Assembly: GCA_900113425.1 (NCBI GenBank)
Contig: FOZF01000001.1
Location: 1,404,358 to 1,468,357 of the forward strand
DNA from: Stenotrophomonas maltophilia
GTDB lineage: Bacteria; Pseudomonadota; Gammaproteobacteria; Xanthomonadales; Xanthomonadaceae
Direction: 5' to 3'
DNA length: 64,000 nt
A program made the translations under genes and the position numbers. Positions 40,394 to 44,225 of the stretch are shown in pieces; the stretch's first letter is position 1; each line of letters begins with the position of its first letter. The notes under the pieces were generated by a model. The model saw nothing but the letters and a program-made list of their open reading frames with translations. It did not search any database and had not been told where the DNA came from.

Positions 40394-41971
40394 ATGGTGT
40401 TTCGTGTTTCCATCGCACTGGTTCTGTTGCTGGTGCTGCTTGCCGGCGTAGCACCCGGTCCCTTCAACGCCGTGGTGCAGAGCATCCTCGGCGAACTCAT
40501 CCGCGGCATCGGCTGGCTGTACCTGCTGGTGGTGTTCCTGGCGCTGGTGTTCCTGATGTACCTGGCGTTCGGCCGCTTCGGCAACCTCCGCATCGGTGGC
40601 GAAGACGCCGAACCCGAATTCTCGCGGGCCAGCTGGATGTCGATGCTGTTCGCCGCCGGCATGGGTATCGGTCTGGTGTTCTGGGGATCGGCCGAACCGA
40701 TCTCCCATTTCAGCAAGCCGCCGGAAGGACTGGCACCGGAAAGCATGGACGCCGCACGTGCAGCGATGCGCTATGCGTTCTTCCACTGGGGCCTGCACCC
40801 GTGGGCGATCTACGCACTGATCGGCCTGGCGATGGCGTGGTTCCAGTTCAACCGCAATGGCCGCGGTCTGGTCAGCGACATGCTGCAGCCGATCATCGGT
40901 CATCATCATCGGGGCTGGATCGGACGGGTCGTCAACATTGCCGCGGTGGTGGCAACGGCGATCGGCGTGGCCACCACGCTGGGCTTCGGCACCATCCAGA
41001 TCGCGGCCGGCATGCAACGCGTGTTCGGCGTGCATGCCGGTGTGCCGCTGCAGCTGACCATCATCGCCGTCGCCTTCGTGCTGTACATGGCCTCCACCCT
41101 CAGCGGCGTGGAGCGCGGCGTGAAATGGCTGTCGAACTTCAACCTGGCATTGGCCGCCCTGCTGCTGGCACTGGTCCTGGTGCTCGGGCCGACCGGCGCG
41201 ATCTTCAATACCTTCACCACGACGCTGGGATCCTACCTGAACCAGCTGGTGACGATGAGCCTGCGCATGTCACCGTTCTCCTCCAGCACGTGGGTCGCCG
41301 ACTGGACGATCTTCTACTGGGCCTGGTGGATTTCGTGGGCACCGTTCGTGGGTTCGTTCATCGCGCGCATCTCGCGTGGCCGCAGCGTGCGCGAGTTCGT
41401 GGTGGGCGTGGTACTGGCGCCGACGCTGCTGGGCTTCTTCTGGTTCTCGGTGTTTGGTGGCACCGCGATCTGGTCGCAGATCTTCGGCCATGCAGACCTG
41501 GTGCAGGCACTGGGCAACGGCTACGAGACCGTACTGTTCACCCTGTTCGACAGCATGCCACTTCCATTGCTGCTGTCATGCATCGCGCTGGTTCTGCTGA
41601 TGATCTTCTTCGTGACCTCGGCTGACTCGGCGGTGCTGGTGCTGGCCAGCATGTCCACCGACGAGGCAGGCGACCCGCCCGCCAAGCGCAAGCTGGCCTG
41701 GGGTGTGGGCATCGCGCTGATCGCGGGTGCGTTGCTGCTGGCCGGCGGCCTCGACGCACTGCAGGGCATGATCACGATCTCGGCACTGCCATTCGCGCTG
41801 CTGATGGTGCTGGTGATGGTCTCGCTGTACCGGGTACTGGATCAGGAGTACACGCGTGAACGTCGGCAGGCCCAGCGCCAGCGGCACATGATCGACGCGT
41901 GGATCGCGCGCGAAATGGCGGCACAGGAAGAAACCCGGGCCGAATCAGCGCGCGCGCAGGATTCGGATTGA
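40394..41971 (+). CDS. BCCT-family betaine/choline/carnitine transporter
   Basis: A 525-residue inner-membrane transporter of the betaine-choline-carnitine type, with about 12 helices. The signature is clear: FFHWGLHPWAIYALIGLAM near residue 125 and DWTIFYWAWWISWAPFVGSFIARISRG near residue 305, the aromatic box that binds quaternary ammonium groups. ATG 40394 is chosen because GGAGA precedes it and the family starts there; 54 upstream codons are open but low-complexity. A charged C-terminal tail rich in Arg/Glu/Gln could be an osmosensing tail. The choice among betaine, choline and carnitine is open. Confidence 0.92.
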   Translation: MVFRVSIALVLLLVLLAGVAPGPFNAVVQSILGELIRGIGWLYLLVVFLALVFLMYLAFGRFGNLRIGGEDAEPEFSRASWMSMLFAAGMGIGLVFWGSAEPISHFSKPPEGLAPESMDAARAAMRYAFFHWGLHPWAIYALIGLAMAWFQFNRNGRGLVSDMLQPIIGHHHRGWIGRVVNIAAVVATAIGVATTLGFGTIQIAAGMQRVFGVHAGVPLQLTIIAVAFVLYMASTLSGVERGVKWLSNFNLALAALLLALVLVLGPTGAIFNTFTTTLGSYLNQLVTMSLRMSPFSSSTWVADWTIFYWAWWISWAPFVGSFIARISRGRSVREFVVGVVLAPTLLGFFWFSVFGGTAIWSQIFGHADLVQALGNGYETVLFTLFDSMPLPLLLSCIALVLLMIFFVTSADSAVLVLASMSTDEAGDPPAKRKLAWGVGIALIAGALLLAGGLDALQGMITISALPFALLMVLVMVSLYRVLDQEYTRERRQAQRQRHMIDAWIAREMAAQEETRAESARAQDSD

Positions 41972-42053
41972 GGGTGTTCGGCAGCCTGCGGCTGCACCGC
42001 TTTTTTCCCAGGCAAGAGCAACGGCAAAAGCGCGTCTGGCTTTCCGCTTGCTT

Positions 42054-42155
42054 GCCGGGGAGGAGCAGATAGCGGGACACGCCGCAAGTACGTCCCTGTA
42101 GGCTCGGCCACGGCATCCATGCCGTGGACGGTCCCGCCATCTGCTCCTCCCCGGC
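42054..42155 (-). repeat. core-and-arms inverted-repeat element, copy A
   Basis: Two 25-bp arms, GCCGGGGAGGAGCAGAT... and its complement, match at 24 of 25 positions; the odd pair becomes G-U if transcribed on the minus strand. They enclose a 52-bp core that, on the minus strand, contains CATGGATG inside a 9-bp hairpin and then GGACGTACTTGC. Copy B at 42346-42451 has the same core in the opposite orientation but completely different arms. The rest of the 535-bp gap between the BCCT gene and the GGT gene holds copy B, a palindrome and no gene. Confidence 0.8.
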
Positions 42156-42225
42156 TCCGACAGTTTCCTGGTGACGGTTGGTCCATCCACGGCGTGCGTA
42201 GATGAGGTGTATCGGAAAACACGAA

Positions 42226-42265
42226 GGGGTCGGATCCGTTTCCTCTGGAAAGCGGATCCGACCCC
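42226..42265. repeat. GGGGTC-type palindromic repeat, copy 2
   Basis: GGGGTCGGATCCG and CGGATCCGACCCC are perfect 13-bp inverted arms separated by 14 bases. It belongs to the same family as 180-219 and lies between the two core-and-arms elements. Confidence 0.7.
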
Positions 42266-42345
42266 AACCCACAGCGCGCGGCTGTCGCTTCTGCTTTTGA
42301 ACTTCTTCTTTCTCTTCCTGCGGTGGCGGCCACGGAAACTGTCCG

Positions 42346-42451
42346 TGGCCGGGCGGGTGGGTTGGCTGGGGGCGTGAGCCGCATGGATGCGGCGACCGAG
42401 CTTACATGGACGTACTTGCAGCGGCCCCCAGCCAACCCACCCGCCCGGCCA
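42346..42451 (+). repeat. core-and-arms inverted-repeat element, copy B
   Basis: Two 28-bp perfect inverted arms (42346-42373 and 42424-42451, beginning TGGCCGGGCGGGTGGGTTGG) enclose a 50-bp core with GCCGCAT/ATGCGGC as inner hairpin, followed by CGAGCTTACATGGACGTACTTGC. The core matches copy A over the CATGGATG and GGACGTACTTGC blocks, while the outer arms share no sequence with copy A. The stop of the GGT gene is 56 bp to the right. Confidence 0.82.
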
Positions 42452-42506
42452 AACCCGGCATTACGGAAACCACCGCAGAGGGGGCTCAGCCCGGTGGCCG
42501 GGAAAC

Positions 42507-44225
42507 TCAGTACCCCGCTGCCTGCCCATCCTTTCGACTCTCCGACGCGCCGTAGTACACCCCCGTGTCCGGATCCCGCATGATCGCCTGATACCCGCCG
42601 TACGGACCGTCGGCGAACACGATGCGATGCCCCTTGCGCATCAGCGCACGCACCGTTTCGTACGGGAAACCCGTCTCCAGGTTCACCTCACCCCCATCGG
42701 TCATCGCCGTGGCCTGCCCGGTCGGCTCCGTGGAACCTTCATGCTGGATGCGCGGAGCATCTCCGGCCTCCTGCAGATTCATGCCGAAGTCCACCAGGTT
42801 CATCACGATCTGCGCGTGGCCCTGCGGCTGCATCGCCCCGCCCATCACGCCGAAACTGGCATAGGGCTTTCCATCCTTGGTGATGAACGCCGGAATGATG
42901 GTCTGGAACGGGCGCTTGCCCGGTGCATAGCCGTTCGGATGGTTCTTCTGCAGCACGAACATCTCGCCGCGGTCCTGCAGGATGAAACCGAGCCCCGGCG
43001 GCGCCATGCCGCTGCCCATCCCGCGGTAGTTGGACTGGATCAGCGACACCATCATGCCGTCAGCATCGGCCACGGTCATGTAGATCGTATCGCCCTCCTC
43101 CAGCTGCTTCGGCGTGCCCGGCTGCACTTCCTTCAACGCCTTGTCCATCGAGATCAGCGCACGCCGCTGCGCGGCATACTCCTTGGAAATCAGCTTCTGG
43201 ACCGGTGCGGGCTGGAAGGCCATGTCGGCGTAGAAGCGCGCACGATCGGCGAAGGCCAGCTTCTTGGCCTCCACGAACAGATGCACGTGCTCGGGCGAGC
43301 CGAATGGAATCTTCGAGAAGTCATAGCCTTCAAGTACGTTGAGAATCTGCAGCGCGGCGATGCCCTGGCTGTTCGGCGGCAACTCCCATACGTCGTAACC
43401 GCGATAGTTGCTGCTGACCGGCTCGACCCACTCGCCGTGGTGGTCGGCCATGTCCTGGTAGCTCAGGTAGCCACCATTGGCCTTGAAGTAATCGCCGATG
43501 GTGTGGGCGATCTCGCCCTTGTAAAAGGCATCCCGACCGCCGTCGGCCACCTTCTGCAACGTATCGGCCAGGTTCGGGTTCTTCCACATCTCGCCCTTGC
43601 GCGGGGCATGCCCGTTGATCGTGAACTGTTCCTTGAAGCCGGGATACTGCGACAGCCGTGCCACGGAGCGATCCCAGTAATAGGCGATCACCTCGGCCAC
43701 CGGGTGGCCCTCGCGCGCGTAGCGGATGGCGGGCGCAAGATTGTCGGCCATGGGCTTGCGGCCAAAGCGGCCATGCAGGGCGAACCAGCCATCGACGGCA
43801 CCCGGCACGGAGACCGGCAAGGGTCCGGTCGCCGGGATCTCCTTCAGGCCGCGGCGCTGGAACTCGGCCAGGGTCAGCGACTTCGGCGAGCGGCCGGACC
43901 CGTTGTAGCCGTATAGTTTCTGTGTCTTCGGGTCCCAGACGATGGCGAACAGATCGCCACCGATGCCATTGCCGGTCGGCTCCATCAGGCCCAGCGCAGC
44001 ATTGGCGGCGATGGCGGCATCGACCGCCGAGCCGCCGGACTTCATCACGTCCAGTGCGATCTGGGTGGCCAGTGGCTGCGACGTGGCCGCCATGGCGTGA
44101 GGAGCGATGACTTCCGAGCGGGTGGCGAAGGTGTGGCCGGTGATGCGGTCGGCAGCGAGGGAAAGCGCGGGCATGGCCGCCAGGACGGCGGCAGCCAGCA
44201 GGGAACGGGCAAGGCGTCGGGACAC
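42507..44225 (-). CDS. ggt: gamma-glutamyltransferase-family protein
   Basis: A 572-residue periplasmic Ntn-hydrolase that cleaves itself into two subunits. A signal peptide (ending ALSLAAD) is followed by [18 protein letters not shown]-type sequence and, at the autoprocessing point, [19 protein letters not shown], with the catalytic Thr in GDT. E. coli GGT has TTHYS at this place, so this belongs to the GDT(I/V)Y branch, whose members are not all glutathione-specific. [18 protein letters not shown] is also typical. The start is GTG 44225 or GTG 44255; the former gives a cleaner signal peptide and an upstream GGAAC. Confidence 0.88.

Follow-up and report, generated by a model that had tools for sequence, protein, structure and literature searches.

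What kind of element occupies the gap between the betT and ggt genes of Stenotrophomonas maltophilia, and on what is selection acting there? The window, the whole 64,000-nucleotide stretch of DNA that was analyzed, contains an intergenic gap of 535 bp (41972–42506) between two convergent open reading frames, a BCCT-family transporter gene (betT, plus strand, ending at 41971) and a gamma-glutamyltransferase gene (ggt, minus strand, ending at 42507). A sequence-only reading had placed two copies of a structured element in opposite orientation in this gene-free stretch, and the ends and strands of the two open reading frames confirm that placement. The coordinates and arms also proved accurate. 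Copy A (42054–42155) folds on the minus strand and has 25-bp arms with one G·U-compatible mismatch, which is a G·U on the minus strand. Copy B (42346–42451) folds on the plus strand and has 28-bp perfect arms. In opposite orientation, A and B are 79% identical over their inner 56 nt. The window has two occurrences of the core, CATGGATG-N18-GGACGTACTTGC, and 100 shuffles gave none. Folding of the two copies (DNA parameters, both strands) gave z-scores of −7.8 to −8.7, and 0 of 200 shuffles equaled them. The earlier claim that the arms have nothing in common holds for A compared with B (40% identity over 25 nt versus 44% for shuffled arms from the same genome) but not for the family as a whole, where arms fall into sub-lineages. 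The spacer between the copies (42156–42345) contains a separate dispersed hairpin at 42226–42265 (GGGGTCGGATCCG... / ...CGGATCCGACCCC) that is also found alone at several sites in the genome as short matches to positions 226–268 of the query.

Each copy of ∼105 nt fits a three-way junction in which long, variable arms (P1) enclose two small hairpins (P2 and P3). The folded strand runs from the P1 5′ arm through P2 with the loop CATGGAYG, a linker of a single A, and P3 with the loop CANGGAYG and a 5-nt bulge, YTYRC, to the P1 3′ arm. On the minus strand of copy A these features are the 5′ arm at 42131–42155, the P2 loop CATGGATG at 42114–42121, the P3 loop CAGGGACG at 42091–42098, the conserved bulge CTTGC at 42084–42088, and the 3′ arm at 42054–42078. 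On the plus strand of copy B they are the 5′ arm at 42346–42373, the P2 loop CATGGATG at 42382–42389, the P3 loop CATGGACG at 42405–42412, the same CTTGC bulge at 42415–42419, and the 3′ arm at 42424–42451. MAFFT inserted gaps into 34 long copies, and an ungapped alignment of 33 trimmed copies was used instead, leaving out L020 and also L021 and L022, which have another spacing. Pairing is retained in 96.3% of the 957 cells of this alignment, and both sides have changed in 22 of the 29 pairs (271 such cells). When the partner was shifted by 1–3 columns as a control, pairing fell to 34–44%. Unaided, RNAalifold returned 27 pairs in a structure nearly identical to the three-way junction. The two pairs below the P3 loop vary between TA/TA, CC/GG, TC/GA, and CA/TG under a constant loop; this survey covered 265 nonidentical double-loop sites whose arms reach 14 bp or more, the other 30 of the 295 sites being excluded for want of such arms, and a reversed-pattern control gave 2 sites, 0 with arms. 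P1 arms defined by Watson–Crick pairing have a median length of 26 bp in 150 core-selected copies, and 18 of the 150 have arms shorter than 12 bp. The feet of the copies, by inspection, differ from one another.

The wobble pairs identify the strand that folds, as a G·U on one strand is an A·C on the other. The CATGGAYG strand of the 150 core-selected copies has 135 G·U and 33 A·C pairs (p = 8e-16), with more G·U in 77 copies and more A·C in 11. The count of distinct wobbles in 265 copies is 174 G·U to 42 A·C (p = 3e-20). For both counts, each set of identical copies was reduced to one and copies close to locus ends were left out, and both p-values are too small because the copies are related by descent. 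The wobbles are predominantly G·U on one strand, and therefore the CATGGAYG strand is the folded strand of the element. Equal counts are expected from double-stranded DNA or from arm-to-arm repair. Thus, selection sees one strand, either as RNA or as single-stranded DNA.

The same locus in other genomes of the genus shows how the arms change in place. All 61 genus genomes match part of a 1.2-kb query around the betT–ggt gap, and the orthologous gap was surveyed in the best 30 of the 61. The covariance model matches on both strands in 17 of these 30 best-scoring loci (window included, one partial), and several of the rest of the 30 are cut by contig ends. The copy A locus has at least two very different arm sequences. 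Compensatory changes are found within each: 4 pairs (11 cells) among ten copy A orthologues with one arm sequence and 9 pairs (18 cells) among eight with another, some of the latter reflecting a shift of both arms by one base. With slid partners the counts were at most 2 pairs and 2 cells. G304, a genome of the same species, lacks 225 bp including copy A (window 41991–42215) and has 5 bases in their place (L205 junction near 1495–1501). These data bear out the earlier proposal that structure is conserved while sequence changes: pair counting shows that the arms covary rather than being simply inherited as sequence, also among orthologous copies of one locus.

The genome search suggested with that proposal found that the core recurs widely. 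The strict core is present 16 times in the 4.1-Mb S. maltophilia genome and 0 times in reverse, and all 16 copies have long complementary arms on both sides by inspection. A looser two-loop pattern finds 55 copies in this genome and 68, 104, 95, 46, 104, and 52 copies in six congeners, with 0 matches to the reversed-pattern control in every genome. A seventh congener, G164, has 0 copies of the two-loop pattern despite two csrA matches. Within the order, the pattern matches 19 of 101 genomes, some of these matches being single-copy with arms unchecked. At E ≤ 1e-4, the covariance model has matches in 39 of the 232 class genomes that are at least 90% complete; the class scan scores the best candidates only, so that the 193 genomes without a match are element-free only approximately. 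Across the phylum it matches 18 of 199 genomes (E ≤ 1e-5), and all 18 are the genome itself or belong to the same genus or the same class. The only matches in the window at E ≤ 0.01 are copy A (42065–42144, 94.8 bits, E 5.8e-20) and copy B (42359–42438, 93.1 bits, E 1.5e-19). The named collection holds at least 120 loci. Among the matches listed, 115 are gammaproteobacterial by title and include Stenotrophomonas, Xanthomonas, Marinobacter, Halopseudomonas, Rheinheimera, Idiomarina, Shewanella, Microbulbifer, Pectobacterium, and others; the remaining 5 of the 120 are four titled 'Proteobacteria bacterium' and one Nitratireductor bin. This last copy (L147) lies on a metagenome contig titled alphaproteobacterial and is perhaps mis-binned. 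Loci titled Stenotrophomonas maltophilia have arm and flank sequences in common with copies of the genome analyzed. We also noted that many copies in the genus have a conserved GGAAACTGTC, or a near variant, directly flanking the 5′ arm on its outer side.

Searches among mobile elements and known families did not place the element. The pattern matched three viral contigs and none of the three had a model match at E ≤ 1e-4, and a phage-borne element was rejected. A plasmid search with copy B as the query gave 0 matches and is weak because the arms vary. None of the 37 Rfam matches to this stretch of the window reached the gathering threshold, most being microRNA models that fit a long hairpin, and 12 loci gave 0 matches at gathering. 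A description of the element was not found among the open-licence papers that the searches listed. In a Stenotrophomonas paper (PMC4411124), a long core string is part of a PCR primer. Term searches found no such element in the searched text of PMC12306157 (RepRanger) or PMC3733652 (GTAG/CGTC), and the searched text of PMC5568370 does not mention Xanthomonas or Stenotrophomonas. The Alcanivorax RNAs CsrR1 and CsrR2, as described in part of PMC9788540, are different RNAs.

The two loops suggest a partner. Both read C-ANGGAY-G, an ANGGAN hexaloop closed by C-G, and each fits the consensus of a CsrA/RsmA site, with the first site in P2 and the second in P3. A passage of PMC7705225 gives the RsmA site as CANGGAYG, the CsrA SELEX consensus as RUACARGGAUGU, and the CLIP motif as AUGGAUG. 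The corresponding sections of PMC7652899 describe binding of RsmE to an ANGGAN hexaloop and the bridging by a single CsrA dimer of sites 10–63 nt apart, with an optimum above 18 nt. The GGA-to-GGA spacing in copies A and B is 20 nt, inside this published range. The structural part of the sequence-only reading is supported, but the CsrA/RsmA consensus in both loops had been overlooked. ANGGA hexaloops are found in P2 of 201 and P3 of 219 among 225 nonidentical matches to a covariance model that was trained on CATGGAYG copies and favours such loops. The 82 model matches outside the search pattern have an ANGGA hexaloop in 65 (P2) and 76 (P3) cases, with all four bases at N. The csrA gene is present in the genome, and its product reads intact and keeps L4 and R44, residues that we take to be functionally important. 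It was found in 38 of 39 element-bearing genomes, the exception being the draft G192, of which both relatives searched have csrA, and in 18 of 20 genomes without a model match (20 listed of 193). This co-occurrence is uninformative because csrA is near universal (56 of the 59 genomes searched).

Insertions alter the loops in some copies. In at least four congeners, an insert of ∼80 nt that contains several hairpins interrupts the P2 loop of copy B at the same point; it was identified in L208 by an alignment break and in L214, L215, and L216 by sequence. When folded, L214 presents loops AGGAC and AGGACA and L215 presents loops CGGAU and AGGACA, in each case together with the P3 site; the original P2 loop is gone and two GGA loops are gained. 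In L023 (G083, 327–454), a P3 insert swaps the site for loops UGGA and AGGA. These folded expanded copies thus have three GGA loops versus the usual two, at the cost of one original GGA loop each. The G083 loci include P3-insert copies, and the CATGGATGTAGGTAGG... string of the insert is repeated within the G083 genome. Inserts do not always add sites: in L206 (model match 1381–1534, minus), the P3 loop of copy A is interrupted by a palindromic insert that destroys the site and whose new hairpins have no GGA loops, contrary to the expectation that every insert brings in GGA loops. L201 has lost P3 in copy B.

Gene context was examined in 229 matches, of which 25 lie in ORFs (codon-based gene caller), 50 lie at locus ends, and 154 could be placed. 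Relative to the folded strand, 58 of the placed copies are antisense to both neighbours, 43 lie between convergent genes, 39 are sense to both, and 14 lie between divergent genes, compared to 113 tandem, 63 divergent, and 35 convergent among 211 gaps without a copy. Copies therefore shun gene starts in sense, yet they have no bias to sense. Sigma-70 promoters, the sole promoter type scored, lie upstream of 12 of 196 copies versus 11.9 in shuffles, and T ≥ 4 within 60 nt downstream is found in 46 of 196 versus 44 of 196 for A ≥ 4; there is no excess of either. A small RNA gene of its own with a promoter and an intrinsic terminator is not supported by these counts. Read-through from the neighbours would be the simplest source of RNA because a sense gene lies upstream of 82 of the 154 placed copies. 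Adjacent copies within 400 bp are arranged −+ in 54 of 60 cases, +− in 4, and ++ in 2, with a median gap of 151 bp. The divergent (−,+) pairs occur in convergent and tandem gene gaps alike, and the window pair has the same layout. Three other places in the genome match across A, spacer, and B over 365–433 bp with 67–70% identity, one of them covering 389 bp of the query at 70%.

These data identify a dispersed repeat family with a covarying fold, one folded strand, a loop consensus, and a paired layout. The explanation that we favour, as reasonably probable, is that the repeat encodes an RNA that binds CsrA/RsmA. The argument for binding is the combination of strand-specific folding with two CsrA/RsmA-consensus loops, and a structured RNA is also the option that best fits among the three that had been put forward, the others being a terminator-like device and a mobile palindrome. 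The CATGGAYG strand would be transcribed, and its ∼105 nt would fold as the three-way junction. The two short hairpins would each expose a C-G-closed ANGGAN hexaloop as a high-affinity CsrA/RsmA site, and the two sites, 20 nt apart, would be positioned for bridging by one CsrA dimer. The long arms may keep both sites close to each other and protect the RNA. Present by the dozen on intergenic or read-through transcripts, such sites would then probably bind and buffer CsrA/RsmA, or allow CsrA to act on the carrier RNA. The source of the RNA is the weakest link. The promoter and T-tract counts and the lack of a sense bias, with 58 copies antisense to both neighbours and 39 sense to both, count against this reading, as do the non-discriminating distribution of csrA, including a congener with two csrA matches and no element, and the insert-bearing and P3-less copies that lose an original site.

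The main competitor, which we regard as rather unlikely, is a REPIN-like mobile palindromic DNA repeat that is moved as folded single-stranded DNA by an enzyme recognizing the loops of one strand. Pairing would be kept since unpaired copies stop moving, and a host function would be none or incidental. High copy number, the strict −+ pairs in tandem gaps as well, the A–spacer–B stretches at three further places, the weak orientation bias to genes, and the absence of copy A from G304 all fit such a repeat, and a G·U bias is equally expected of folded single-stranded DNA. The fit of both loops to the CsrA/RsmA consensus, including its N and Y positions, would be needless for a DNA enzyme, however, and 0 of the 2 Y1-transposase loci of the genome have a copy within ∼1.5 kb per side. 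Retention of the pair at the gap in 17 of 30 genus loci with compensatory changes suggests upkeep in place. The earlier suggestion of a mobile palindrome that rebuilds its arms thus stands in part: copies and whole A–spacer–B stretches are dispersed, but orthologous arms change by compensation, although one locus nevertheless has two very different arm sequences. Like REP, REPIN, and BIME elements, the family consists of extragenic dispersed palindromes in inverted pairs. REPs measure 20–40 bp and mostly carry GTAG or CGTC tags according to the portion of PMC3733652 that treats them, whereas this element is ∼105 nt long, branched, conserved at the loops rather than the foot, and without a GTAG/CGTC foot tag. 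Copy number, pairing, and weak gene orientation argue for spread as a repeat, and this is compatible with CsrA binding, as in a repeat whose transcript binds CsrA.

Two further explanations fare worse. A bidirectional terminator or 3′-end stabilizer for convergent genes would account for the placement of copies, convergent in 43 of 154 versus 35 of 211 empty gaps and divergent in 14 of 154 versus 63 of 211, and the element resembles intrinsic terminators as a GC-rich hairpin between genes. It differs from them in being branched, with conserved loops and no T-tract excess downstream. The transporter gene is already followed by a terminator-like site at 41981–41995, ahead of copy A, and a terminator leaves the two conserved loops unexplained. 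These observations make such a role very unlikely and speak against the terminator-like device proposed earlier. Copying of one arm from the other by template switching or conversion, so that complementarity arises through mutation alone, is hardly plausible: quasi-palindrome repair is a known process and the arms are near-perfect over ∼26 bp, but G·T and A·C should then be equal instead of 174 versus 42, and constant loops, covarying P2 and P3 stems, and a constant bulge would be unexplained.

The CsrA-binding reading invites comparison with the small RNAs CsrB and RsmX/Y/Z, which titrate the protein and occur in one to few copies per genome. Like them, the element carries several ANGGA-loop hairpins on one RNA. 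Unlike them, it bears two sites in each ∼105-nt copy, is present tens of times per genome, and has long varying arms, no detected promoter or terminator of its own, and no Rfam match. The part of PMC7694677 concerned with Xanthomonas reports that no homologue of CsrB, CsrC, or RsmV–Z was found, and it describes RsmU (sRX061), a novel RNA that sequesters RsmA in Xanthomonas campestris and derives from the comEA 3′ UTR, outside RsmX/Y/Z. The element would likewise be an RsmA-binding RNA outside those families. It is not RsmU itself, as the only model matches around the short HHH_3 gene, taken here to be comEA, lie at a distance of more than 1 kb in three Xanthomonas genomes and one Stenotrophomonas genome.

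Even if CsrA plays no part, the lack of an Rfam 15 match for a structured family that reaches ∼100 copies per genome and occurs in many Gammaproteobacteria is a notable gap. We raise more tentatively the possibility that a distributed CsrA/RsmA decoy is maintained in Gammaproteobacteria, and in Xanthomonadaceae in particular, as dozens of intergenic two-site three-way-junction RNAs that have spread as a repeat and would jointly restrain CsrA. In Xanthomonas such a decoy would correspond to CsrB/RsmZ, and the repeat family would be one under selection for its role as a protein-binding RNA. The buffering of a global regulator would then rest with a dispersed repeat instead of one or two small RNA genes, copy number, which differs between strains, would act as a regulatory setting in its own right, and the question of the RsmA antagonist in Xanthomonadaceae would become directly testable.
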